From assembly GCA_950073835.1 (NCBI GenBank), contig CATMRP010000039.1, positions 1-33,644 on the forward strand: DNA of 33,644 bases, written 5' to 3'. The DNA comes from an uncultured Alteromonadaceae bacterium (lineage in GTDB: Bacteria > Pseudomonadota > Gammaproteobacteria > Enterobacterales > Alteromonadaceae). The translations under genes and the position numbers were made by a program. The notes beneath the pieces were generated by a model, which worked only from the letters and a program-made list of their open reading frames with translations, was not told the origin of the DNA and did no database searches. Positions 247-32,949 of the stretch are shown here, piece after piece (position 1 is the first letter of the stretch; each line of letters opens with the position of its first letter).

Positions 247-2892
247 TTAATCCTGCTCGGTTTCATCCTCGTCCTGCTCCTCGTATTCCACGTCTTCCAG
301 CGGGATGACTTCACTGCTGCTGTAACTTAAGCTCACCGGTGCAGAGTAGTTAGGTACGTCATCATAGCTGAAAACTGAATAGAACTTAGCAATATTAGGG
401 TTACCAAAATTGTCGTAAGTATAGTTATCCGGCCCGGCATACAGCTTTACGCCATCCAAAGGAGACTTGGGCGGATGGAACCTGTTACGCACCACAAAAC
501 TCCCGACAAAATCATCGTGTTCCGGATTCTTCCAGGTAAGTTTTACCTGCTTGTTTTCTACCGTGGCATCAAATTCTGCAGGAGCAGGTAAGGTTGTTTT
601 TCGGCGCTGGATATATTTGATCACCAGTTGGCAGACTAAACTGCTGCTTTCATTATGCCAGTCCACCAGCGCATTATGCTGAGGCGAAGAAGCCGTGGCC
701 CGAATGATAAAATGGAAAGGCTGATTGTCGGCGTATAAAGCTTCGAGGTGGGTTTTACAAAAACTGTCGAAGATAAAATGATGGGTATTGCGCTCTTTTA
801 ACTGCGCGTTACTCACCTCATAGCCGATAAATTCGATTTTTTGTCGGGCTTTCACACTGCTGTAGTCCAGGGCCTCAAGACCAGCCAGTTCAATGGTAAA
901 GCGAATGTCCTTGTGCGTATCCATGGCACTTTTACTTTGCATTACCAGGTAAGCTTCGGTGATCACAGTGCGATCCGGTGGTGGCAGGTTTTCTGGCATA
1001 AAGGCCATTTGCCCGTAAACAATCTCACCCTGTTCATCAAAGCCTGAGCGCAGTTCACCGTTAATGACCTGATCACGATAAATAGTATGCAGCGCGTTAG
1101 GCTTAAGTTCCAGGCGGTTGGTAGGCAGGGTATAAATTAGCTCCATATTCGGCCGGTAATGGATGCCTGCACCAAACTTACCGTAACCTATATCAAACTG
1201 CATCATTTGCGAGTCGGCACCAACCGGCAGTTTTTTAGGGCCTTCAATGCGCAGCAGTAAACGTCCGCCGTTGATGGAGCGCTTAATAATGTGTCGCTCT
1301 GCGACGTTTAATACCCATTCTGACCAGATACCCTGTGTTAGCTTGTCAGACGCGACAGACTGCCCAAAGGTTTGCACCGGTGTGGCCTGATGGATCTGAT
1401 TAAAATCAGTGATGTCGGCAATTTCATCACCATCGAGCACGGAAACCGTCCACTCGCCAAAGTTCTCGACTTTAGCATTCACCCGGTTCATCGGGTAGAG
1501 CGAAAAACGCGCGGCTTTTATCCGCGCGCCTTCCGGTAAACTGTCGAGGTTAAACTCAATCACGCCATAGCAAATACCGCGACGTTTATTAACGCCTACA
1601 AACAGCGAGTTATAGCCAAAATGATCGCGATTTTTCTCAATGGTGTACTGCCCCACGTAGCCCACATTCTGCCGGGCCGGGAACAAGCCGCGAAAATACT
1701 CGTCGCGAGAAAGTTTGGTGCGCAGTTTGATTTCCGGACTGAAGGGCGACTTAATACCAGAAATGCGATCAACAGCTCGGATATTGTAGTAATACTTGTG
1801 ACCACTCTTGAGCTGTACATCGGTAAACGTAAGCTGGCGGGTGCGGGCAATCAGATTGGCTTCGGTACAGGGGCTTTTCACCGACTCGGCGCGGTAAATC
1901 TCAAAGTAGATATCATCTGAAACCGCGTAATCCCAGCTCAGCGTAACCGTGTATACATCCACTTCAGACACGGTAAAGTTATCAACTCTGGCCGGTGCCG
2001 ACGGGGAATAATTAATGGCTTCCGACAGGGCATATTTTACCGCAGGAATATTCTCGTCCACGCTTTGCGACATATTGGTGAGGTAATCCGGAATATTACG
2101 CGTCCCCACTTCCACGACCGAGGCGAGGATCCCCAACGAATAATAGTACTCGCGGCCACTGCCGTGGATCAGATTAGCCGGTGGCTTACCCCGGTGAATC
2201 CCATATTTACGTCCGGTAACTTTATGAATTTCCTTATTCATATTCGCGCACAGTACGTTTAGATCGGTGCCTTCTATTTCTGACTCATGATTAAACTTAT
2301 GCGCCGGGAAGAACACGTTACCCTGCGAGTGGTAATCCAGCGCAATGGTAATATTAGGATGCGACAGCACGAAATCGCGGATCGCTGCCGTTTCCGGCTC
2401 AGAAAACGCCTCCGGCCCCGAATAAGTATTCAGGCTGGTATCAGTTGCGCGCTTAAAGCGCACCGCAAAGTTACGGTTAAGATCGACCCCAAAGGTACCA
2501 TCACCGTTATCCCGCCGATTTTTACGCCAGAATGAAAAATGGGTGCGCGAATACTCAAACCCATCCGGGTTTAAACAGGGCACCATATACAAGGTATTAC
2601 GGGTAAGAATTTGCTTCAGCGTCGGATCGCTGCGGTAATTATCAATAATGTGCTCAATCAGCTTAATGCCGAGTTCATTGCCGATCCATTCACGCGCATG
2701 AATAGTGCCGGTGTAGAGCAGCGCGGGTTTATTATCGGCAAATTCCACATCCAGTGAGACGGTCACCAGCATGATTGGCCGGCCTTCCCAGGTCGTTCCG
2801 ATAGACTGCAGACGTATAACGTGCGGATGCTCGCCCATCACTTTTTCAAGGTACTCAACGGTTTGAGGGTAGGACGTATATTGCTTTTTCAT
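247..2892 (-). CDS. M14-family zinc carboxypeptidase with C-terminal beta-sandwich domains
   Basis: The first 290 residues are an M14 (carboxypeptidase A-type) metallopeptidase domain. Zinc ligands are visible as H65/E68 (motif IHAREW) and H188 (DYHSQG). The substrate-side arginine is in DLNRNF (R140) and the general base is E261 in VVEVGTR. After it come a fibronectin type III domain (about 300-395), two beta-rich segments resembling DNRLRE-like sandwiches (about 400-760), a second FN3-like domain (about 765-860) and a very acidic tail. There is no signal peptide, so a cytosolic enzyme is inferred. It should remove C-terminal residues from a peptide or protein. It is the last gene of an operon behind two ATP-grasp genes, 21 bp after the second. 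A GGTGA element sits 7 nt before the chosen ATG. The substrate is unknown. Confidence 0.88.
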   Translation of the reverse strand: MKKQYTSYPQTVEYLEKVMGEHPHVIRLQSIGTTWEGRPIMLVTVSLDVEFADNKPALLYTGTIHAREWIGNELGIKLIEHIIDNYRSDPTLKQILTRNTLYMVPCLNPDGFEYSRTHFSFWRKNRRDNGDGTFGVDLNRNFAVRFKRATDTSLNTYSGPEAFSEPETAAIRDFVLSHPNITIALDYHSQGNVFFPAHKFNHESEIEGTDLNVLCANMNKEIHKVTGRKYGIHRGKPPANLIHGSGREYYYSLGILASVVEVGTRNIPDYLTNMSQSVDENIPAVKYALSEAINYSPSAPARVDNFTVSEVDVYTVTLSWDYAVSDDIYFEIYRAESVKSPCTEANLIARTRQLTFTDVQLKSGHKYYYNIRAVDRISGIKSPFSPEIKLRTKLSRDEYFRGLFPARQNVGYVGQYTIEKNRDHFGYNSLFVGVNKRRGICYGVIEFNLDSLPEGARIKAARFSLYPMNRVNAKVENFGEWTVSVLDGDEIADITDFNQIHQATPVQTFGQSVASDKLTQGIWSEWVLNVAERHIIKRSINGGRLLLRIEGPKKLPVGADSQMMQFDIGYGKFGAGIHYRPNMELIYTLPTNRLELKPNALHTIYRDQVINGELRSGFDEQGEIVYGQMAFMPENLPPPDRTVITEAYLVMQSKSAMDTHKDIRFTIELAGLEALDYSSVKARQKIEFIGYEVSNAQLKERNTHHFIFDSFCKTHLEALYADNQPFHFIIRATASSPQHNALVDWHNESSSLVCQLVIKYIQRRKTTLPAPAEFDATVENKQVKLTWKNPEHDDFVGSFVVRNRFHPPKSPLDGVKLYAGPDNYTYDNFGNPNIAKFYSVFSYDDVPNYSAPVSLSYSSSEVIPLEDVEYEEQDEDETEQD

Positions 2893-2913
2893 ACTGCGTT
2901 CACCAGATGTTGA

Positions 2914-4341
2914 TTATGCCGGAGCAAAGTGTTGTGTCTGGCCGGTAAACTCACCCCAGTGAGACACAATAAGGTCGCGTTTTTTCTCGCGCAGATTCTT
3001 CACCTGCATCAACTGCTCAGGGTCCTGAGTTAATGCCAGGGATAAGCCTTCCACCCCAAGAGTGGTAAAGATATCGGTGATCATTTTGGGACCCACGCCT
3101 TTAATACCGGCCAGAAACGCTTCAAGCTGGGCCTTGCTGTAGCTTACCTGGGGGGCTTGCAGGATATCGGTATCGTCTTGTTGTGCGTCTTCCAGACCAA
3201 TTTCCTGATGCTCCAGATGTAAATCCGGGATAGGGCGGCTTAACGTTTGTGGCGTATAGTTATCCTGAAAATTCCAGTACTCACTGGGCCATTCCTCACC
3301 ATCGCGTAATTCCACCGGCAGCAGCGGATATTGCTCGCGGGACACCCCGGCCAAGCTATCGGCACAGTCGTAGCTTGGCGTGTACTCACCAAAGGTGATA
3401 TGCCGCATAGTGCGTAGCAGTGATGAACGAATTTTGCCGAGCTCTTCCCAATTAAACAGTGGAATATAAGGCTTTTTAAAGGTGTCTTCGGCGAGCATCC
3501 ACATAATGTACTGACCAATCCAGTCACGCACGTAAGGGAAGGCCGCAAACGCAGTAGCGCATTCTAAGATACGGAACCTGCCATCTGTCCCCAGCGCAAT
3601 ATCACAGGCCCAGTATTCCGCCTGAGCCGCCTGGGAGGCACGCACGGCAATATCCAGCGCTTCTTTAGGTACATCCAGATAATCCATCGAGCCGCCCTGA
3701 CTGGTATTGGTTAACCAGTGCCCGGCAGGTGGACGACGCCAGAAAGCACAAATGGGCTTATGTCCCACCAGCATCACCCGGATATCGGCCGCCATGGGCA
3801 CAAATTCCTGCACATAAACCGGGTAGTATTTTTTCTGGCCAATAAGGGCCTGAGCTTCCTTAAAGCTATCGACTTTGTGCACAAAGTAGCCGCCATAGTT
3901 AGACGGTCCGTAAGACTTCTTAATGATCTTCGGATAGCTGGTGGACTGTAAAAAATCCAACGCCTCATCTTTTTCATAAAAGATATGCGTAGTGGGAATA
4001 GGCAAATCGTGTTTGCGACAAAAATGGGTCACATTTTCTTTGGATTTATTAGCAAACTGGGTATCCAGTGACGGCACAAAACGCACACCCGGCAATTGGC
4101 GGGCAATGTCACGAAATGTTTCATAAGCAGTAGCCGGTACGTTGCCAATCAGCACCTGGATACCTTTTTGCTTTACTTCACGAATAAAGCGGGCTTTATC
4201 ATTGCCCCAGTGATAGGTCACACTTTCAATGGGATCAGGCCAGCCTTTGAAATTTGATTTGTCAAAAAAACGCAGCACGTGATCAAGATATAAAAAACCA
4301 ATTTTAGGCAAGGGTTGGGCAGGGGTTACGGGCTTGGTCAT
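2914..4341 (-). CDS. RimK-like ATP-grasp protein with C-terminal helix-hairpin-helix
   Basis: This 475-residue protein has an ATP-grasp fold. The lid lysines are in KIIKKSYGPSNYGG (about 138-151), the QEFVPMAADIRV strand follows (178-189), and ACDI (D247) precedes the metal-binding segment ILECAT (258-263). The usual acidic-x-Asn metal motif reads E260-C-A here, so the Asn is absent. This is either a divergent active site or loss of activity. Residues 400-475 hold a helix-hairpin-helix (GIKGVGPK at 412-419), a fold that usually contacts nucleic acid and is unusual on an ATP-grasp ligase. The ATG lies 2 nt after the stop of the upstream ATP-grasp gene, so translation is probably coupled. An amide- or peptide-bond ligase or its regulatory partner is inferred; the substrate is unknown. 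Confidence 0.8.
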   Translation of the reverse strand: MTKPVTPAQPLPKIGFLYLDHVLRFFDKSNFKGWPDPIESVTYHWGNDKARFIREVKQKGIQVLIGNVPATAYETFRDIARQLPGVRFVPSLDTQFANKSKENVTHFCRKHDLPIPTTHIFYEKDEALDFLQSTSYPKIIKKSYGPSNYGGYFVHKVDSFKEAQALIGQKKYYPVYVQEFVPMAADIRVMLVGHKPICAFWRRPPAGHWLTNTSQGGSMDYLDVPKEALDIAVRASQAAQAEYWACDIALGTDGRFRILECATAFAAFPYVRDWIGQYIMWMLAEDTFKKPYIPLFNWEELGKIRSSLLRTMRHITFGEYTPSYDCADSLAGVSREQYPLLPVELRDGEEWPSEYWNFQDNYTPQTLSRPIPDLHLEHQEIGLEDAQQDDTDILQAPQVSYSKAQLEAFLAGIKGVGPKMITDIFTTLGVEGLSLALTQDPEQLMQVKNLREKKRDLIVSHWGEFTGQTQHFAPA

Positions 4342-4343
4342 GG

Positions 4344-5291
4344 CTAGGCACTCAATAATTCGATTACGGTTTGTTTAGACTGATTGTGGTGATGTGCTTT
4401 GGCTTTTTTCTCAATAAGACTCACCACTTTTTCAATTTTAAGGTCGTTAAAATTAAGCCCCATGGCTTCCTGCTCCGGCGTGGCAAAGGCCGGTATACCA
4501 TTGACTTCCAGCACCACATATTCTTCCTGCTCACGGTCGTAGATGATATCCACGCCAGCAATCTCCAGGCCGGTCACTTTGGCTGCTTTAATGGCAATAT
4601 TGACAAGTTCGTCATTGGGTTCGCGCACAATCACCTTTCCGCCACTGGTAACATTGGTTTTCCAGTCATCAGCGGGGGCCTGGCGGCCGTAACAACCAAC
4701 GTACTCACCGTCGACAATATCAATGCGATAATCAGTCATGTCGTAATTAACAAACCGTTCAATATAAAAATGCTGGATGTTGGTTTGATCCAGAAATGGC
4801 AGCAACATATCCAGTGAACGCTCATCCTCAATTTTTACGATCCCCATGCCACCCCAGCCATCGGTAGGCTTGTACACCAGGCGGCCGCCCCATTCGCGGA
4901 TGGTATTTTTAAGGATTTGCTTTTCATTGCGATTGCACAACCGGTAATCGGGGGTGCGCAGCCCGGCACGAGCTAAACGCTGAGAGGTACGAAACTTATC
5001 TTCAGATAACGCAAAGGAAGCGAAGTTATTGAGGCAGGGTATGCTTTCATCCAGCACCTGATATAAGTACACCTGATATTGCGATTGCTGGCCTGCGTTA
5101 TAAGAGAAGAAAGCGTCCAGCTCATCCATGGCCACGTTATTACACATAATATGACCGGCTTTTGCATAAGCATTAGCCAGGTTGAGATCGGTAATAACCG
5201 CCACATCCCGCTCCCGCAACAGATTAATAATTTTGGACTGGATGACATCGCCGCCACCGTTTTTGTACATCCACATTCCAGCTGTATACAT
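4344..5291 (-). CDS. RimK-like ATP-grasp ligase
   Basis: An ATP-grasp enzyme of RimK size (about 315 residues). The adenine-side lysine and flexible glycine loop are in VYKPTDGWGGMG (about 139-150), TNVTSGGK matches the position of the RimK loop SNLHRGG, and LEVNG (about 261-265) gives the canonical Glu-x-Asn magnesium ligands. Enzymes of this type join a carboxylate, activated as acyl phosphate, to an amine, as in adding glutamate to a protein or peptide end. It is first in a three-gene operon with a second ATP-grasp gene and an M14 carboxypeptidase. The longest frame begins at a GTG (5297), but AAGG at 5297-5300 overlaps that codon and sits 5 nt before the ATG at 5291, which is preferred. 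Substrate not known. Confidence 0.85.
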   Translation of the reverse strand: MYTAGMWMYKNGGGDVIQSKIINLLRERDVAVITDLNLANAYAKAGHIMCNNVAMDELDAFFSYNAGQQSQYQVYLYQVLDESIPCLNNFASFALSEDKFRTSQRLARAGLRTPDYRLCNRNEKQILKNTIREWGGRLVYKPTDGWGGMGIVKIEDERSLDMLLPFLDQTNIQHFYIERFVNYDMTDYRIDIVDGEYVGCYGRQAPADDWKTNVTSGGKVIVREPNDELVNIAIKAAKVTGLEIAGVDIIYDREQEEYVVLEVNGIPAFATPEQEAMGLNFNDLKIEKVVSLIEKKAKAHHHNQSKQTVIELLSA

Positions 5292-5542
5292 CGACACCTT
5301 GATACCTTTTGCATTGAAAATTTAAAGAACAACAGGCCTTACCCCCCGCCTGCTTAATGGCTCAGAAGACATCTTGTGTCGTGATTTTCATTCAGGCACC
5401 TCCGTGAGCGGGGCCTAGTTAACGCATCCTTTATGACAAGATGATGACGACTTTTTAACCAACACAAATTGTTCAAAAAAGTGTCATCCCCCGTTCACCT
5501 GTGGCCTATAAAAATGCGCCAGCTAAATTATGAGGATGCCCT

Positions 5543-6640
5543 ATGTCTGTTGATTTTGCCGAGCTGGCCACACTGATAAATCTCAACTCTCACAGTCACA
5601 ACAAAGCAGGAATTGATGCCAATGCGGCGATTTTCGGTAGCTGGATGGAAGCTCTGGGTTATGCCACCAACACCTATCATCGCGAAACCATCGGCAATCA
5701 TGTGCACTTTTGCTCAACACGCCACCACGGGCCGCGGGTGTTATTGCTGGGACATTTGGATACCGTATTTCCGCCAGGTACTTTTACCGACTTTAGTCAG
5801 GATGACGAATGGGTATACGGGCCCGGCGTGTGCGATATGAAAGGCGGAAACTACGTGGCCTTGTGTGCCCTACGAAATATACATGCGCAGCAAGGTAAAC
5901 TGGGCAATATTGATATGTTGCTGGTCAGCGATGAAGAAACCGGTAGCGAAGACAGCAAAACCCTTACGGCTAAACTGGCAGCAGAGTATGACATTGCCCT
6001 GGTGTTTGAAGCCGCGGGTAAAAATAATGAAGTCGTTATTGCCCGCAAAGGTATTGCGACCTACTTTATCGATATCACAGGGAAGGGCGCACATGCGGGT
6101 AATCATTACCGTGAGGGCGTCAATGCCAATCTGGCTGCCGCTCATCTGACTATTTACCTGACCTCACTTACCAGCCTGGAGAAAGGTACCACGGTGAACG
6201 TAGGAAAAATCAAAGGCGGTCTGAGCGCCAATACCATCTCTCCGCAGGCACAACTGGTGGTGGAAGCGCGCTTTACCGGTAATGATGAAAAACTACGCAT
6301 CCTTACTGCTTTTGAACACCTTGCGAAACATAACCCTGTCGCAGACAGCCACCTTACTGTCACCGGCGGCCTGCAACGGGATGTTATGCAGCCCTGTGCC
6401 GAACAACAGCAGTTATTGCGCCAGATAGAAGAAATACTGGGTTATCCGCTGACCGTTGAACAGCGTGGCGGCGTAAGTGACGCTAACGTAACCGCCGGCG
6501 CCGGGGTGGCCACCCTGGATGGTTTTGGTCCGTTTGGTGATGGCGATCATACGATTAATGAACGCGCCAGCAAGGCGAGTTTTCATCAGCGTGTTAACGA
6601 AGTCACGAAAATTCTGGCGGCGTTTAATCAGCCTCGATAA
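5543..6640 (+). CDS. M20-family metallopeptidase, glutamate carboxypeptidase-like
   Basis: A 365-residue M20 peptidase. The dinuclear zinc site is visible: H71-x-D73 in LLGHLDTVFPPG, bridging D98 in GVCDMKGG, general base E131 with E132 in DEETGS, E156 in VFEAAG, and a C-terminal H336 in GDGDHT. The dimerisation domain lies at about 170-280. The closest look is to carboxypeptidase G2 and ArgE/DapE-type enzymes, which remove C-terminal glutamate or deacylate amino acids. There is no signal peptide. A GAGGA box precedes the ATG. It is divergent from the ATP-grasp/M14 operon across about 250 bp, which suggests but does not prove a shared pathway. Its last 17 bases overlap the end of the convergent dehydrogenase gene. 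Confidence 0.85.
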   Translation: MSVDFAELATLINLNSHSHNKAGIDANAAIFGSWMEALGYATNTYHRETIGNHVHFCSTRHHGPRVLLLGHLDTVFPPGTFTDFSQDDEWVYGPGVCDMKGGNYVALCALRNIHAQQGKLGNIDMLLVSDEETGSEDSKTLTAKLAAEYDIALVFEAAGKNNEVVIARKGIATYFIDITGKGAHAGNHYREGVNANLAAAHLTIYLTSLTSLEKGTTVNVGKIKGGLSANTISPQAQLVVEARFTGNDEKLRILTAFEHLAKHNPVADSHLTVTGGLQRDVMQPCAEQQQLLRQIEEILGYPLTVEQRGGVSDANVTAGAGVATLDGFGPFGDGDHTINERASKASFHQRVNEVTKILAAFNQPR

Positions 6641-27222: not shown

Positions 27223-28518
27223 ATGGACGCAAGAAATACACTTCCCGATAAAGTCGCGAGCGCAAGCTCTGCTGACAAAGTTGTAAAAGATGGAAAAATT
27301 AAGCGCTGGCCGGTCGGCAATGGAATTTATCTCCGCGTAAGAGGTAAGGGTCTAGCTAGTTGGGAATTTAGGTTTTCTATCGCAGGTCAGCGTTATACAG
27401 AAACATTAGGACAATACGGAAGAAGACCTCAGGGGATTCCGTTTGGCGACATCAAGGACAAAACAGCAGAAGTCAGATATCAGCTGAAAGAGGGTCTTAA
27501 GGTTCCCGGGGTCGTTACTCGCTCTATTGATGGCGAAGTTCGTACTGTGAATGACCTAGCAGATCGTTGGTTCGAAAAGAAAAAGAAAAGTGTCGGTAAG
27601 CTGGAAATTGTTGTCAATCGCTATAACAATTGGATAAAGCCTCATATCGGCAATAGACCTTTCGACAAAGTACAAACGGAAGAAATTGAGCGCCTTCTTG
27701 ATAATATTATGTCTCATGGCTACAGAACTGTTGCAAACAAGGCGCTCTCAGACTGCAAACATATTTTCAATGTAGCAGTAAAACGAAAACGAATTGCTTA
27801 CAATCCAGCCCAGCTTCTCGATCGAACCGATGCTGGCGGTGAAGAATCTAGCCGCAAACGAAAACTGTCAATTGAGGAAATACAGACGGTATTCAAGGTG
27901 CTCAGGCATCATCAGATACAATTCACTCGAGACAATTACTTAGCAACAGCCATATTGTTAATTACAGGTGTTCGTAAAAATGAGCTTTTAAAAGCAACTT
28001 GGAATGAGTTTGATTTTAAACAGAAGATTTGGCGTATTCCCACGAGGAGGGTAAAAAAGAAGAACACTGGAGGGTACTGCGTGCCAATCGTCCCAGCGGT
28101 AGAGCAGTGGCTTGATGAACTAAGAGTAAAAAGTTCGGGTTCGGCTTTCGTGTTTCCAGCAAGGCGGAAAAGTAAATCAGGACATGTCTGTGAAAATACA
28201 CTCAATGCAGCTTTGCAAAAAATGTTTGGCAAAGGGAAATCGAATGGTAAACATACATACCCTAATCTGTTTGAGGAACACTGCATTGAGCATTTCGTCA
28301 TTCATGACTTGCGTAGGACTTCTCGAACGCTCATGCGTTCAAAGGCTTTTCTTGGCAACAAAAGAGCCTCTTTCGAAGCAGCCGAAAGACACTTAAACCA
28401 TCGCTTACCCGCATTGGCTGAAACATACGATCCAGATGATTTTTTTGATGAAAGAAAAGATGCCATGGTCTTTATGAGTGAGAAGCTAGCTTCATTTATA
28501 AACTCGCCTCTCACCTAA
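27223..28518 (+). CDS. tyrosine-recombinase integrase
   Basis: A 431-residue tyrosine recombinase. The N-terminal arm-binding/DUF4102-like part (about 25-100: GNGIYLRVRGKGLASWEFRF) is followed by a SAM-like core-binding domain (about 107-205) and the catalytic domain. The active site is complete: R251 (ITGVRKNEL), H361-x-x-R364 (HDLRRTSRT), H393 (HLNH) and Y402 (ETYDPDD). It is the P4-like type used by genomic islands. Its location next to yicC indicates integration there. No excisionase gene is found near it in the window. The ATG at 27223 follows a weak AGGG element. Confidence 0.93.
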   Translation: MDARNTLPDKVASASSADKVVKDGKIKRWPVGNGIYLRVRGKGLASWEFRFSIAGQRYTETLGQYGRRPQGIPFGDIKDKTAEVRYQLKEGLKVPGVVTRSIDGEVRTVNDLADRWFEKKKKSVGKLEIVVNRYNNWIKPHIGNRPFDKVQTEEIERLLDNIMSHGYRTVANKALSDCKHIFNVAVKRKRIAYNPAQLLDRTDAGGEESSRKRKLSIEEIQTVFKVLRHHQIQFTRDNYLATAILLITGVRKNELLKATWNEFDFKQKIWRIPTRRVKKKNTGGYCVPIVPAVEQWLDELRVKSSGSAFVFPARRKSKSGHVCENTLNAALQKMFGKGKSNGKHTYPNLFEEHCIEHFVIHDLRRTSRTLMRSKAFLGNKRASFEAAERHLNHRLPALAETYDPDDFFDERKDAMVFMSEKLASFINSPLT

Positions 28519-28542
28519 GGCTATTGGTTCAGGGCATACTTA

Positions 28543-28570
28543 TTGATTTTAACGCCTAATCCAATACACT
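28543..28570 (+). promoter_or_regulatory. possible promoter of the four-gene cargo operon
   Basis: TTGATT (28543-28548) and TACACT (28565-28570) are spaced by 16 bp, in the only gap (about 92 bp) between integrase and cargo. Each box matches the consensus at four of six positions. Confidence 0.35.
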
Positions 28571-28610
28571 GGAAACATAAACAGAGTACTATGCAAAGAA
28601 ACGATAATTT

Positions 28611-29507
28611 TTGATTGTGAAAGTATCCAAAGACTACAACATATCAGCCATATCTAGACTTTTCTCAGCTAACGTTGTAAAGGAATTAGCGAGAAAGGGA
28701 AGGTCCCCCCTATTTGCTCGACTAGTTAACGAAGCAGAGATCTCAGTAAATGCGCATTCACACTGTAATGTTAGGGATGTTTTTGATGATGCTTTCACAA
28801 TACTCAAAAGAAAGAGTAATCGACACGAGTATGTATACAAATCTGCGCTGACTCAAAACGTTCTACTTGGAAAGCACTCTCTTAATACAGCGTCCATGAT
28901 TACAGAGTTCCGAGTAGACGACTGCAAAGCAGATGTTGTTATTCTCAACGGTACTGGAACAGTCTACGAGATCAAATCTGAACGCGATTCGCTCACTCGC
29001 CTAGTAAAACAAGTTAATGCATATAGAAAGGTATTTGCAAAGGTTTTTGTAATTGCTGGGGAAAATCACATTGATGCTATCAGCGATTCGGTGCCACATG
29101 ATGTAGGCATTCAGGTTTTGTCTAGCGGCTACAATATTTCTGAGGTGCGTGACGCCTTAGATTTACCAGAACGCACTTGCTCTACATCAATATTTAATTC
29201 CATCAGAATTAAGGAAGCCAAGTTAATTCTTAATACAGTAGGTATAAAATATCCGGATGTACCTAATACTGAGCAATATGCAGCATTAAAAGAAGTGTTT
29301 TCAAAACTTCCCCCGCAAGTTGCTCATCATACAATGGTAAAAATTCTGAAACAGACTCGCAGTCTACTCCCCTTACAGAAAGTAGTAGAGCAACTACCAA
29401 TATCATTGAGAGCTGCAGCACTGAATACACCAATAAGAAAATCGGATCAACCAAGGCTAATTGATGCGGTTAATACACCAATCGATGAAGCACTACAATG
29501 GATGTAA
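28611..29507 (+). CDS. sce7726 family protein, PD-(D/E)xK nuclease-like
   Basis: A 298-residue protein recognised as sce7726-type from the start SKDYNISAISRLFSANVVKELARKG and the central LLGKHSLNTASMITEFRV. Its middle reads as a PD-(D/E)xK nuclease core: E99 (ITEF), D108 (KADVVIL), E120-x-K122 (YEIKSERDS), then a basic helix RLVKQVNAYRKVF. A metal-dependent nuclease is therefore inferred; the target is unknown. The start is non-ATG: TTG at 28611 or GTG at 28617, with no clear ribosome binding site, and the ATG just upstream hits a stop. It is followed 8 bp on by the sce7725-type gene. These two families are commonly found side by side in islands and defence regions. Confidence 0.75.
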   Translation: MIVKVSKDYNISAISRLFSANVVKELARKGRSPLFARLVNEAEISVNAHSHCNVRDVFDDAFTILKRKSNRHEYVYKSALTQNVLLGKHSLNTASMITEFRVDDCKADVVILNGTGTVYEIKSERDSLTRLVKQVNAYRKVFAKVFVIAGENHIDAISDSVPHDVGIQVLSSGYNISEVRDALDLPERTCSTSIFNSIRIKEAKLILNTVGIKYPDVPNTEQYAALKEVFSKLPPQVAHHTMVKILKQTRSLLPLQKVVEQLPISLRAAALNTPIRKSDQPRLIDAVNTPIDEALQWM

Positions 29508-29515
29508 AGTAAGCA

Positions 29516-30460
29516 ATGTATTACCCATATTTCCGCGGAAAACAAAATGAGTTAATTACCATAAGAAACAATGCTCAATTGATGGCAAACGCGAACTTCG
29601 TTCCCATTATTGAACCGGTAAAAGAGACGCTAAATGGATTGAAAAGAGCATTGGATGCAGTTGTTCAAGCCGATGGAAAGGCTGTTGTGATAGTTAACCC
29701 TTTTCATGGTGACTATTCTGATAATGGCGACTCTTTAACAAGACTTTTGGCTGAACATTTTGAGGACAAGGATGGCATTTATGCGGGGATACTCCTTACC
29801 AGTGATGTTTCACTTGAGGATGCAGTTTCTTGTTGTAATGCACATTCAAACCATAATTTAACTCTTATTCATGCAGGTTTTTCAAATGCCAAGGGCTTAA
29901 GCGCAGCATTGGGAAACAAACTGAATGATATTACTCATTGTTTCTTTGAGGATGATGCGGGAAAGCTTTATCAGAAACACTTTTTTTCAGCTCCACAGAA
30001 AATTTTAATACGGGATGGGTTTAAAAAACGAAAGAACAGGGAACACCCTGATGTTGAATTTTTTTCTGATCTACATGCAACGTTTACCCTAGAAAATATG
30101 GAGGGGTTCGGTGATTTTCTGATTGTGGGCGATGAGTATTCTGAAAGTGGTGGCCCTGCATATGCTGTAGCGATACATCTGACTTTTATTGATAACGAAC
30201 AAGACGATGCAATGTTTATATATCATTTCATCTCAGACCGACAAGAAACGCCACAAGATCCGGCAGGCAAGTTCTTGGAAGCGTTGAACAAATTAATCAT
30301 CAAAGCCGATGAACCAAATTCAAAAATTCTAGCCACAAATGCATTAAGTGAGTTTCGTGACTTCCATGCCCGAAAACATTTCCCTGGGTTGGGCTATGCA
30401 AAGAAACTATCAATGCAGCATCATATAGAAGTCCTCGCTAATTACTTTGAAAACAATTAG
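29516..30460 (+). CDS. sce7725 / beta family protein
   Basis: A 314-residue protein beginning MYYPYFRGKQNELITIRNNA and then FVPIIEPVKETLNGLKRAL and VVIVNPFHGDY, the features of the sce7725 (beta protein) family, which occurs next to sce7726-type genes. The pattern of alternating strands and helices, with AVVIVNPFHGD, ILLTSDV and LTLIHAGF, suggests a TIM-barrel-like fold. No catalytic residues can be assigned. The biochemical role is unknown. It lies 8 bp after the nuclease-like gene and 8 bp before the RES gene. Confidence 0.7.
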   Translation: MYYPYFRGKQNELITIRNNAQLMANANFVPIIEPVKETLNGLKRALDAVVQADGKAVVIVNPFHGDYSDNGDSLTRLLAEHFEDKDGIYAGILLTSDVSLEDAVSCCNAHSNHNLTLIHAGFSNAKGLSAALGNKLNDITHCFFEDDAGKLYQKHFFSAPQKILIRDGFKKRKNREHPDVEFFSDLHATFTLENMEGFGDFLIVGDEYSESGGPAYAVAIHLTFIDNEQDDAMFIYHFISDRQETPQDPAGKFLEALNKLIIKADEPNSKILATNALSEFRDFHARKHFPGLGYAKKLSMQHHIEVLANYFENN

Positions 30461-30468
30461 GCATTATC

Positions 30469-31500
30469 ATGAATTGTTGCTCAAATTGTTTTGGCGATAA
30501 CGGCCTTAAGTCTCATATTGAGTTTCTCTCCCAAGAAACTGGTGATTGCGACTATTGCGGTTCAACCAAAGTTCCAGTTGTTGCACCACCTATGTTAGAA
30601 GACAAGTTTGCTGCCCTCCTAAATACATACGAACAGAATGAAGCAGGCTGTTCAATTGTCGAATTACTGAAGAAAGATTGGTGTCTTTTTTCACACGACC
30701 AAATGTCAATCGCTCAGGGGCAGATGTTACTGGGAGATGTTTTAGATGACGGGCAATTAGTTCGACAAAACTTTGTGCCGTCTGAGCAATATCTGTCGAA
30801 TAGACTTGGCAAGTGGGAGGAACTCCGACAGGAATTAATGCATAAAAACAGGTTCTTTCCCGAGACTGAAATCGATCTGGAGCGTCTCGAAGAACTTCTT
30901 TCACATATATCTCTCAGCTCAAACGAACTTCAGCTCGAGTGGCACCGTGCTCGGACTAAAACCCGCGACGAGCTATTTTCAGCAGCGGAAATGTCCGCCC
31001 CTCCCTCGCATGTTGCTTCCCATGGTCGAGCTAATCCAGCCGGAATTCCGTATCTATATCTGGGTTCTGAAATTGAAACCGCTGTTTCAGAAATCAGGCC
31101 GCATACCGGTGACATTACATGTGTTGCAAGTTTCAAAATCCCAAACAACCTCACTCTTGTAGATTTACGTGCAGCAAGAAATTCTGTTTCCCCCTTCATA
31201 TTAGAGGATGAAAAAGATATCGGAAGAATGCGATCAGATCTTGTATTCTTGGAACGTTTGGGACACGAATTGACCCGACCAGTAAGGCAAATGGCTGCGG
31301 CTTTTGATTACACGCCAAGCCAGTACTTGTGTGAATTTATCAAAAAGAGTCGGTATGACGGAGTGCTTTACAGGAGTTCCGTAAGCGACGGCTTTAACCT
31401 TGCTTTATTTGACCAATCAAAAGCACAAATCGGAATCATTTCCCAACGCCGTGTTGAAAAAGTAGGTGTGGAAATATCCGCTGAAAATGTTGATGTTTAA
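30469..31500 (+). CDS. RES-domain protein with N-terminal zinc ribbon and HEPN-like region
   Basis: A 343-residue protein. The first 30 residues hold two CxxC pairs (C4/C7, C27/C30), a zinc ribbon. Residues about 45-150 are helical, like the HEPN-RES N-terminal domain. Residues about 155-325 are a RES domain with the three name-giving residues: R160 (WHRARTK), E208 (AVSEIRP, in the NPAGIPYLYLGSEIETAVSE context) and S303 (YRSSVSDGFNLALF). Known RES toxins degrade NAD+ (phosphorolysis) or ADP-ribosylate a target and arrest the cell. The usual Xre-type antitoxin gene is not present next to it. A growth-arresting effector of a defence operon is inferred. Confidence 0.8.
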   Translation: MNCCSNCFGDNGLKSHIEFLSQETGDCDYCGSTKVPVVAPPMLEDKFAALLNTYEQNEAGCSIVELLKKDWCLFSHDQMSIAQGQMLLGDVLDDGQLVRQNFVPSEQYLSNRLGKWEELRQELMHKNRFFPETEIDLERLEELLSHISLSSNELQLEWHRARTKTRDELFSAAEMSAPPSHVASHGRANPAGIPYLYLGSEIETAVSEIRPHTGDITCVASFKIPNNLTLVDLRAARNSVSPFILEDEKDIGRMRSDLVFLERLGHELTRPVRQMAAAFDYTPSQYLCEFIKKSRYDGVLYRSSVSDGFNLALFDQSKAQIGIISQRRVEKVGVEISAENVDV

Positions 31501-31524
31501 TAAGTTAAATTAGGGAGAACTACG

Positions 31525-32949
31525 TTGAACGACATTACAAAATCAACAGGCACCGACTTAGTTGATCCGCAGGCTCAGCGTATAGTTGATTTTCTTGGTC
31601 ATATTGGACTCCCGACCGACAACATAATAGCAGAGCAGTCAGAACGAAACATAATTGGTCAGAATCTACCGGCTTACATCGAGTCTTTGCCGGATGAAGC
31701 GAAGAGAAATGCTCGCTATCTTTCCAAGTTTGTTGTCGGCGCTGGATTCGGGTTATTCGATTACTCTCTAAATGCAATCTGGAACGAAGTTGTTATCGAT
31801 TTACGGAAGAAGGCTATTGGCTATGGTCTTGATATATTTTATGACTCTGCCGTAGGAGGAAAAGCTCGTGAGTTTTATCAAACGGAAGATGATTTAGCAT
31901 CGCTTAAAGATTCAGTGCTGTTGGATACGTGTAGAAAGCTTGAGCTTATTTCTGACACAACCTACAAAAAACTGAAACACATACTGGAAATGAGAAATGA
32001 TATAGGAATATCTCATCCAACCAACTACACAATAAATGCCTTCGAGCTTCTTGGTTGGCTTCAGACTTGTATTCAAGATGTTCTGAATGATAGACCAACA
32101 GAAGCTGCGCTGCAGGTTCAGGCGTTCATTCAAAATCTCAAGGCATACACATCCCCTATTGATCCAGCAACCCAACAGACTATTCAGACGAGAATTGGTG
32201 AGCTTGCAACTCATCACCTAGCTAGCATTCTTAGAACTACTTTTGGAATTTATGTTTCAGCCGACACAGACCCCCAAGTCAGGAAAAATATCTCTCTGAT
32301 TGCGCCTTCAGTGTGGGCAAACTGCGCAGATGAACCTAAATACAAATTGGGAATAACGCTAGAGGGCTACAATACCAATCTGCACAAAGATAAGTACGAG
32401 CTTGGTAGTCAATTCTTTAGTTTCGTAAATGGTAATACGTTCCGTTCACCGAATGAACGAGCAATTATTGTTGACAGTCTAGTCGACCAGCTTCTCGAAA
32501 AACACAATGGGTGGGATAATTTCCACCACGAGGCTCCTGTAGCTGACAATTTAGTGTCATTCATTCAAGAACATAAAGATGTAATCCCGAATAACATTGA
32601 AAAACTAGTAAAAGTGACTCTCATGTGTCGTATAGGCAGAGGTGTTAGCTATAATCAAGGAGTCTCACCAAGGGGGAAGGCATACTACGATCATATTTTG
32701 GGGCTGCTCGGAGACAAGTATGCACCACATGCAATGGCAGCATTGGGTCATTATGAGATTCAACGGAAACTTGAAATGTCTGTGTGCCGAACTCAAGGAA
32801 AACTTGCATTAGAAATTATTAGGCAAGGAGTGGTTAACGACCGCCTGATTGAATGTCTAAACTTTCTTATTGAACACATTGAGGGTACTGGAAAGTGTGT
32901 GTTTGATAGCCAGTTCAAAGTACTTTCTAGCGGCTATATAAATTGGTAG
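31525..32949 (+). CDS. uncharacterised protein with HEPN-like R-x6-H motif
   Basis: A 474-residue protein with no known family recognised. It starts at a TTG (31525) with a strong AGGGAG ribosome binding site about 6 nt before, so the rare start is well supported. Helical throughout. Residues R157-N-D-x4-H164 (MRNDIGISHP) match the R-x4-6-H signature of HEPN ribonucleases, including the polar residue after Arg, at the end of a helix pair beginning near 130. The C-terminal half (about 260-474) includes VKVTLMCRIGRGVSYNQGVSPRGKAYYDHIL and no recognisable motif. It is the last cargo gene, 24 bp after the RES gene. It might be an RNase effector or a sensor. Confidence 0.65.
   Translation: MNDITKSTGTDLVDPQAQRIVDFLGHIGLPTDNIIAEQSERNIIGQNLPAYIESLPDEAKRNARYLSKFVVGAGFGLFDYSLNAIWNEVVIDLRKKAIGYGLDIFYDSAVGGKAREFYQTEDDLASLKDSVLLDTCRKLELISDTTYKKLKHILEMRNDIGISHPTNYTINAFELLGWLQTCIQDVLNDRPTEAALQVQAFIQNLKAYTSPIDPATQQTIQTRIGELATHHLASILRTTFGIYVSADTDPQVRKNISLIAPSVWANCADEPKYKLGITLEGYNTNLHKDKYELGSQFFSFVNGNTFRSPNERAIIVDSLVDQLLEKHNGWDNFHHEAPVADNLVSFIQEHKDVIPNNIEKLVKVTLMCRIGRGVSYNQGVSPRGKAYYDHILGLLGDKYAPHAMAALGHYEIQRKLEMSVCRTQGKLALEIIRQGVVNDRLIECLNFLIEHIEGTGKCVFDSQFKVLSSGYINW

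Follow-up and report, generated by a model that had tools for sequence, protein, structure and literature searches.

A conserved cassette of two ATP-grasp ligases and two peptidases, and its possible role in writing and erasing acidic C-terminal residues

Background

The RimABK system of Pseudomonas encodes a RimK-type ligase together with a protease, RimB, that removes the glutamates added by the ligase (PMC11957791); according to the same source, ribosomal protein S6 is so far the one bacterial protein described to receive a C-terminal extension of poly-alpha-glutamate. A RimK-like ligase and an M20 hydrolase also work together in the LysX/ArgX-LysW-LysK system, and MyfA/MyfB and MptN/CofF are RimK-like ATP-grasp enzymes too; in the case of MyfA/MyfB, what receives the glutamates is not a protein (PMC8141765). 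Here we describe a cassette of four genes encoding two ATP-grasp ligases (GRASP1 and GRASP2), an M14 carboxypeptidase and an M20 peptidase (below simply M14 and M20), located at positions 247-6640 of a 33,644-nt stretch from an uncultured Alteromonadaceae bacterium (GCA_950073835.1, contig CATMRP010000039.1); the whole stretch is referred to as the window. The four genes form a genuine functional unit, best explained as a cytosolic module that would write and erase acidic residues at the C-terminus of an intracellular acceptor, a reading to which we give slightly less than even odds (about 0.48).

Compared with RimABK, the cassette has two ligases, an M14 and an M20 as putative erasers rather than the retropepsin RimB, and no RimA; moreover, GRASP1 falls below the RimK-family cut-off and the encoded S6 tails of the cassette carriers examined do not differ by eye from those of non-carriers. 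With the LysX/ArgX-LysW-LysK system it shares a RimK-like ligase and an M20 hydrolase, the tryptophan in the glycine loop of GRASP1 and LysX as the top match of GRASP2, but no carrier protein was found in the window's genome, an extra M14 is present and the M20 scores far below the LysK cut-off. A difference from the MyfA/MyfB and MptN/CofF ligases is that no cofactor genes are seen beside the cassette. Among the M14 enzymes, carboxypeptidase O (CPO), with Arg255 (PMC9925722), and the cytosolic carboxypeptidases (CCPs) resemble the cassette M14, with its Arg247, in having a basic S1' residue; the latter differs from them in being bacterial and without an export signal, in carrying FN3 and DNRLRE-like domains and in being closer to carboxypeptidase T and the carboxypeptidase A and B (CPA/B) enzymes. 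Among the papers listed by a literature search that did not reach most subscription papers, none describes the four-gene set. The word "peptidase" occurs 0 times in the main text of the methylofuran paper (PMC8141765), and the words M14, M20 and carboxypeptidase are absent from the paper on the R2K clade of ATP-grasp enzymes (PMC4431377).

The cassette is a conserved unit

The features of the locus are as follows.

2892-247, minus strand: M14, 881 amino acids (aa); Pfam Peptidase_M14, 3.7e-56
4341-2914, minus strand: GRASP2, 475 aa; Pfam RimK domain, 2.1e-12
5297-4344, minus strand: GRASP1, 317 aa, GTG start; Pfam RimK domain, 3.9e-22
5298-5542: divergent intergenic region between GRASP1 and M20, 245 bp; no match in Rfam
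5543-6640, plus strand: M20, 365 aa; Pfam Peptidase_M20, 3.2e-21

All four open reading frames (ORFs) are intact. The minus-strand genes are transcribed in the order GRASP1, GRASP2, M14, with gaps of 2 bp (4342-4343) and 21 bp (2893-2913), and M20 diverges from GRASP1 across 245 bp. The ORFs and Pfam matches agree with an earlier reading of the window made from its letters alone (the sequence-only reading), which had listed two ATP-grasp genes, an M14 and a divergent M20, with gaps of 2 and 21 bp and a spacing of about 250 bp.

Separate searches for the four genes among 118 sampled genomes from the family to which the window belongs, its own genome included (E <= 1e-20 for GRASP2 and GRASP1, E <= 1e-40 for M14 and M20), each recovered the identical 6 genomes. 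The odds that one gene pair would agree in this way by chance are 1 in 3.3e9 on the assumption of independent genomes, which genomes are not. From the genus group of the window three further members were sampled, and these have none of the four genes. At E <= 1e-20, GRASP2 was found in 1 of 321 genomes of a class sample (the window's own) and in 4 of 349 genomes of a phylum sample (its own and three from other families), and the four genes stand together at all eight foreign GRASP2 matches of the family, class and phylum samples. A collection scan, from which the best 80 of 337 GRASP2 relatives were used, brought the total to 88 loci together with these eight, and to 86 distinct loci, the window not counted, once two same-contig duplicates had been dropped (L014 = L027 and L017 = L036). 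The full set is present at 79 of the 86, a count that includes loci in which M14 or M20 is cut by the contig end as well as two with a broken M14 frame (L061 and L064). M20 is divergent in 76 of the 79, all genes are co-directional in two, and in one (L021) M14 and M20 are fused into a single protein of 1243 aa (M14 part 1-855, M20 part 873-1228), followed by GRASP1 and GRASP2. Seven loci are incomplete: two begin at GRASP1 with the contig (L072, L099), one has GRASP2 alone (L092), two have GRASP1 and GRASP2 (L086, L093) and two have M20, GRASP1 and GRASP2 (L088, L098). In the loci with a broken frame, from Veronia nyctiphanis (L061:12141-14723) and an Endozoicomonas metagenome-assembled genome (L064:4044-6708), M14 is in pieces and the other three genes are open; the break in L064 may be an assembly error.

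The genes also occur together when they are not neighbours. In a sample of 298 Campylobacterota genomes (E <= 1e-60 for GRASP2 and M14, kinship among the genomes being uncorrected), GRASP2 was found in 31 and M14 in 32, and all 31 GRASP2 genomes carry M14. Judged by their coordinates, the two genes adjoin in 28 of these genomes and lie apart in G760, G774 and G894; the M20-GRASP1-M14 operon lies 0.84 Mb (G774) and 0.75 Mb (G894) from GRASP2 along the contig. Four of five Campylobacterota genomes without a linked M14 have an orthologue elsewhere, approximately 52-57% identical to that of the window. Each cassette protein does belong to a large common superfamily, but the identical presence pattern in the family sample, the order kept in two phyla, the M14-M20 fusion and the co-occurrence when unlinked leave a practically negligible chance that unrelated housekeeping peptidases and ligases happen to adjoin here. 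The sequence-only reading had staked its proposal on co-conservation, and the genes are indeed co-conserved, both in the genome samples and across the 79 loci; the cassette is a functional unit and not a chance cluster.

Built from 87 rows, the GRASP2 tree has a supported branch (100/99) that separates the 26 Campylobacterota rows from 54 gammaproteobacterial rows and four unnamed or window rows, and three sequences from other families of Pseudomonadota form a distant long-branch group. When 72 rows, the window among them, are compared, the distances between pairs of rows correlate at 0.82-0.88 from one of the four proteins to another. The patchy presence, taken together with a tree that is faithful to phylum, suggests that the cassette is old and often lost, although some transfer within families may have taken place.

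The two ligases

GRASP1 is a RimK/ArgX/MptN-like ATP-grasp ligase. The Pfam RimK model is over its cut-off in both window ligases and is matched by all 30 aligned GRASP1 proteins and all 30 aligned GRASP2 proteins. Lys101, Lys143, Arg191, Asp250, Glu264 and Asn266 are present in all 85 aligned GRASP1 rows, so that the ATP-grasp lysines and the D...E-x-N metal set are invariant throughout. In Pseudomonas RimK, Arg189 and Asn262 bind the last resolved glutamate (PMC10092738), and their counterparts in GRASP1 are Arg191 and Asn266. The further contacts to the glutamate chain given in the same source (Ser7, Arg8, Ser14, Arg64 and Ser68; PMC10092738) lie outside the aligned part, and the N-terminal motifs of GRASP1 differ by eye, which makes an acceptor different from that of RimK plausible. 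The glycine loop of GRASP1 is DGWGG, in which GWGG is present in 85/85 rows and Trp148 is aligned with the GSWGR motif of ArgX, a motif with a described role (PMC10433800).

GRASP2 consists of a RimK/LysX-like ATP-grasp region (approximately residues 12-285), a low-confidence linker that includes the motif EEWPSE (349-354) and a helix-hairpin-helix (HhH) tail (403-472). Its best NCBIfam match is LysX_arch (75.8 bits), with rimK_fam (75.2 bits) and MptN close behind, and it remains below the RimK cut-offs (75.2 bits against TIGR00768 and 22.8 against the RimK equivalog). In structure comparisons covering residues 9-357, the GRASP2 model could be superimposed on RimK (PDB identifier 4iwx) with a Z-score of 20.2 and a root-mean-square deviation (rmsd) of 3.5 over 261 residues, and equally well on ArgX (PDB identifier 3vpb; Z-score 20.1). 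The HhH tail of the window's protein is below the Pfam cut-off and is modelled with a predicted local distance difference test score (pLDDT) above 90 over most of its length; HHH_5 is matched in 22 of 30 GRASP2 proteins (E <= 0.01). Among six further GRASP2 proteins from Campylobacterota, two have strong HHH_3 matches instead or as well (3.8e-27 and 4.4e-27), HHH_5 is found in two and no such domain in the remaining two, and the GRASP2 of G465, G536 and G543 (349, 322 and 322 aa) are tailless. A tail that is variable yet recurrent suggests that binding of nucleic acid or ribonucleoprotein by GRASP2 would be useful and not essential. The linker motif (3280-3297, minus strand) is found in 82 of 96 GRASP2 proteins, and its first five residues, EEWPS, in 86 of 96. 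EEWPSE resembles the EDWGE tail of LysW and GRASP1 has the ArgX-like tryptophan, a pairing that marks the motif as a possible candidate for docking of the two ligases.

The two peptidases

The M14 protein has a catalytic domain (approximately 5-295), an FN3 domain (303-377), a DNRLRE-like domain (422-469) and further beta domains. The sequence-only reading had noted FN3 and beta-sandwich domains; in the window's own protein the fn3 and DNRLRE models stay under their curated cut-offs, and they are recovered in most of 30 orthologues at E <= 0.01 (fn3 in 21, DNRLRE in 29). By sequence, the M14 comes closest to carboxypeptidase T and to the CPA/B enzymes. The model of the catalytic domain (approximately residues 1-297 being compared) superimposes on human carboxypeptidase B (CPB; PDB identifier 1zli) with a Z-score of 26.6 and an rmsd of 2.8 over 253 residues, many further relatives being within about 1.5 Z units of it, and on CPO (PDB identifier 5mrv) with a Z-score of 25.1 and an rmsd of 3.2 over 261 residues. 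An alignment of 74 full-length rows, from which fused, broken and partial copies were excluded, shows the zinc-binding and catalytic set (His65, Glu68, Arg123, Asn139, Arg140, His188 and Glu261) in 74/74.

Arg247 is likewise present in 74/74 rows and falls on the S1' specificity position 255, a number that we assigned by our own count in CPA numbering. HMMER alignments pair it with the residues at position 255 of CPB (Asp) and CPA4 (Ile) and with the matching Asp of CPB2. At this position Asp confers a specificity for basic, Leu/Val for hydrophobic and Arg (as in CPO) for acidic C-terminal residues, and the acid specificity of frog CPO was demonstrated with FA-Glu-Glu (PMC9925722). The cassette M14 is accordingly predicted from its sequence to remove acidic C-terminal residues, and Arg247 at position 255 makes the writer/eraser reading more specific.

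Export was judged by a hydropathy heuristic, the most hydrophobic stretch of 10 residues within the first 35. Counted from the conserved start at the catalytic domain, the maximum is at most 1.23 in 74/74 orthologues; 13 of the 74 have an in-frame upstream start (1-62 residues further), and this extension was excluded. For two further M14 proteins of this genome, both with hydrophobic N-termini, the corresponding values are 2.16 and 2.27, the latter being read from a chosen inner Met. Export of the M14 was the other point on which the sequence-only reading, which saw no signal peptide, had said it could fail, and a hydrophobic N-terminus is absent from all 74 orthologues when read from the conserved start. 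Because that start has no hydrophobic stretch, the enzyme with its FN3 and DNRLRE-like domains is probably intracellular, unless it leaves the cell by a different route. The same genome also encodes a separate short M14, of CCP type by eye (L002:1393-2523). An acidic C-terminal tail of the M14 was considered as a substrate of the enzyme itself; it occurs in Alteromonas and some Pseudoalteromonas (L055, L057, L065) and is missing in others (for example L031-L034) and in the Campylobacterota rows, and this idea was rejected as not general. A sub-profile of the M14 specificity loop gave chance matches only, and alignments were used instead.

The nearest solved relative of M20 is carboxypeptidase G2 (CPG2; PDB identifier 1cg2, 3.3e-25). 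His71, Asp73, Asp98, Glu131, Glu132, Glu156 and His336, the residues with metal-binding and catalytic roles in this family, are invariant in 79/79 rows. By eye, M20 has no signal peptide. Its score against the PRK07338 hydrolase model is 215.5, below the cut-off of 357.

A proposed writer/eraser module and its rivals

In the module that we propose, GRASP1 with ATP would join the amino group of glutamate (or aspartate) to the free carboxyl of the acceptor, as RimK and ArgX do, and GRASP2 would be a second ligase or a partner that positions the substrate. M14, with Arg at position 255 in S1', would trim C-terminal acidic residues one by one, and M20 would remove the last or a differently linked glutamate or finish off the short peptide released. 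Through its usual HhH tail, GRASP2 would keep the complex attached to nucleic acid or to a ribonucleoprotein. The added residue as glutamate, the direction in which each enzyme works, the acceptor and the role of the HhH tail are what we infer. The sequence-only reading had itself suggested a writer/eraser pair, and the co-conservation, the lack of an export signal on M14 and its acid-type Arg247 fit that suggestion, which is thereby supported in part. A wider form, namely an ancient reversible C-terminal acidic tagging with two intracellular erasers and two unlike paired ligases, one of which an exchangeable HhH tail would tether to nucleic acid or to the translation machinery, we consider unlikely.

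Several points weigh against the proposed writer/eraser module. No acceptor was found, and the encoded S6 tails are alike by eye in 13 carriers, 10 non-carriers and G761 (that of the carrier G763 ends in ...KKVAK), although encoded tails cannot show modification. GRASP1 is below the cut-off of the RimK family (TIGR00768, rimK_fam; 135.1 against 143.4 bits), and its score against the RimK equivalog is 59.4 against 331. GRASP2 has lost the third metal ligand of the E-x-N motif, which is replaced by Glu260-Cys-Ala262 in 87/87 rows, and because this Asn is gone throughout, GRASP2 may not be a ligase, may bind ATP differently or may act as a partner. In M14, position 256 is Glu248 in 74/74 rows and could offset the charge of Arg247, several active-site loops of the model have a pLDDT below 50, and Tyr248 of CPA is replaced by variable residues (Asn in 35 and Gln in 22 of 74); this Tyr is not critical for small substrates in CPA (PMC3940198). 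According to the same source, a Burkholderia CCP with a pocket Lys, predicted to be acid-specific, cleaved a glutamate substrate weakly (PMC3940198), so that the pocket residue alone is not proof of specificity. M20 scores below the curated glutamate carboxypeptidase cut-off (PRK06133, 179.4 against 349). Exceptions to co-occurrence also exist, as G761 has GRASP2 without a detected M14 and G1020 has M14 without GRASP2 at E <= 1e-60. By eye, the M14 of G1020 is flanked by argG and a carbonic-anhydrase-like gene, just as the complete set is in G972, and it is apparently a remnant of cassette loss, M20 and GRASP1 not having been searched for elsewhere in G1020.

The main rival, which we regard as somewhat unlikely, is that the cassette does not modify a protein but makes and turns over a small molecule, namely an acidic peptide, an osmolyte or a cofactor side chain comparable to the glutamate tails of methylofuran or F420/H4MPT, which the ligases would build and the peptidases would degrade or trim. 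CPG2-type M20 enzymes act on small glutamate conjugates, and many of the named carriers belong to genera of marine or vent bacteria, which could fit an osmolyte. GRASP1 scores alike against MptN (tetrahydromethanopterin:glutamate ligase, 134.2 bits) and rimK_fam (135.1 bits), but is far below the MptN cut-off (134.2 against 350), and the RimK-like MyfB is known to elongate the glutamate tail of a cofactor in a methylotroph (PMC8141765). When ORFs of at least 70 aa within 3 kb of the 86 loci were clustered, the top clusters covered 21 and 21 loci, both confined to Pseudoalteromonas, and the clusters spanning both phyla reached at most four loci each; no dedicated biosynthetic or transport gene accompanies the cassette in this set. 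In our opinion, an 881-aa carboxypeptidase with multiple beta domains and an HhH-tailed ligase also seem oversized for a small molecule. The same neighbour comparison bears on a graspetide-like pathway, in which the ATP-grasp pair would make lactam or lactone links in the precursor of a ribosomally synthesized and post-translationally modified peptide and the peptidases would trim it: no neighbour is widely shared, smaller ORFs, where a precursor would lie, being outside the comparison. ATP-grasp ligases with peptidases are typical of graspetide clusters, but the graspetide models score far below their cut-offs with GRASP2 (TIGR04187, 26.5 against 350 bits; TIGR04185, 15.4 against 425) and GRASP1 (TIGR04192, 16.9 against 230), and such a pathway is highly improbable.

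Metabolism on a LysW/ArgW-type carrier, in which the ligase would load an amino acid on the C-terminal Glu of the carrier and the M20 would release the product, has echoes in both ligases, namely the LysX_arch match of GRASP2, the alignment of Trp148 of GRASP1 with GSWGR of ArgX and the EEWPSE motif. However, EEWPS is missing in 10 of the 96 GRASP2 proteins, and M20 scores 41.2 against [LysW]-lysine hydrolase, with a cut-off of 363. A LysW homologue is absent from the window's genome, the one carrier genome searched (0 matches, the control being positive in 4 of 14 genomes), and a CPA-type M14 is not known to have a place in the LysW pathway. The missing carrier already strains this route, which we consider very unlikely. 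The writer/eraser module for acidic C-terminal residues remains the best explanation of the cassette.

Genomic context and leads to an acceptor

Some sites of the cassette lie beside translation genes. Among the Campylobacterota, rplS is succeeded by the cassette or by three of its four genes, all in one orientation, in G774, G894, G1051 and G775 (L138:9984-11573, L140:9888-11498, L144:4040-5620 and L148:5278-6858), and GRASP2 is located 29-47 bp downstream of efp in G774, G894 and L092 (L139:6336-8418, L141:6020-8040 and L092:8632-10682), the other three cassette genes not being seen on the contig of L092. In two related genomes, G759 and G762, the unlinked M14 is next but one to rpsF (L108:8154-11500 and L110:8437-12622); it stands immediately upstream of a small gene for an ABM-domain protein and of rpsF-ssb-rpsR, with ssb identified by eye and S18 verified in L110. 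The EF-P, S6 and L19 neighbours were confirmed by Pfam. Other cassette sites are beside argG and elsewhere. Looser cases in gammaproteobacteria are an EF-P-like gene approximately 2.7 kb away in L065, found by clustering, and an L19-like ORF approximately 1.7 kb away in L071, seen by motif only. These sites hint that the acceptor belongs to translation, with the qualification that the genomes are few and related and that translation genes are common neighbours. S6 was considered as the acceptor on account of the M14 near rpsF; the encoded tails in 24 genomes do not separate carriers from the rest, and S6 is kept as a lead.

The cassette was also compared with mobile, defence and RNA elements. 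The FN3 stretch of M14 matches phage tail fibre J (1.1e-13). The M14 model matches phage carboxypeptidases weakly (TM-score normalized by query length at most 0.24 in the 50 rows listed). Nothing in a phage collection is a match for the M14 protein at E <= 1e-10, nor did the window's GRASP2 give any hit in IMG/VR when used in a pattern scan able to detect close relatives only; a phage origin was rejected on the two empty scans despite the tail fibre match. Among plasmids, one 2.1-Mb Photobacterium replicon was matched at E <= 1e-20, with no features annotated there. The four cassette proteins have 0 matches in PADLOC at E <= 0.01, and the idea of a known anti-phage defence gene was rejected. 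No RNA was matched by Rfam in the window or in a lax search of 5200-5700, and a riboswitch or other RNA at the locus was rejected as well. Elsewhere in the window, 27223-32949 holds a tyrosine-integrase-like gene (below the NCBIfam cut-off), followed by sce7726- and sce7725-family genes (over the cut-off), and two genes without an NCBIfam match; the sce7726 gene (28611-29507) matches the PADLOC model PDLC02989 (4.9e-21). This region looks like a small integrated island.

Implications

Whichever reading is right, the way in which the four genes occur together makes a single testable system out of enzymes that look generic. Should the product be a small molecule, the cassette would represent an undescribed pathway for an acidic peptide or a cofactor. 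If the writer/eraser reading is true, a second writer/eraser set, with other erasers and spread over two phyla, would make C-terminal tagging a broader means of control in bacteria, and the cassette would provide a compact set of four genes with which to find the acceptor.

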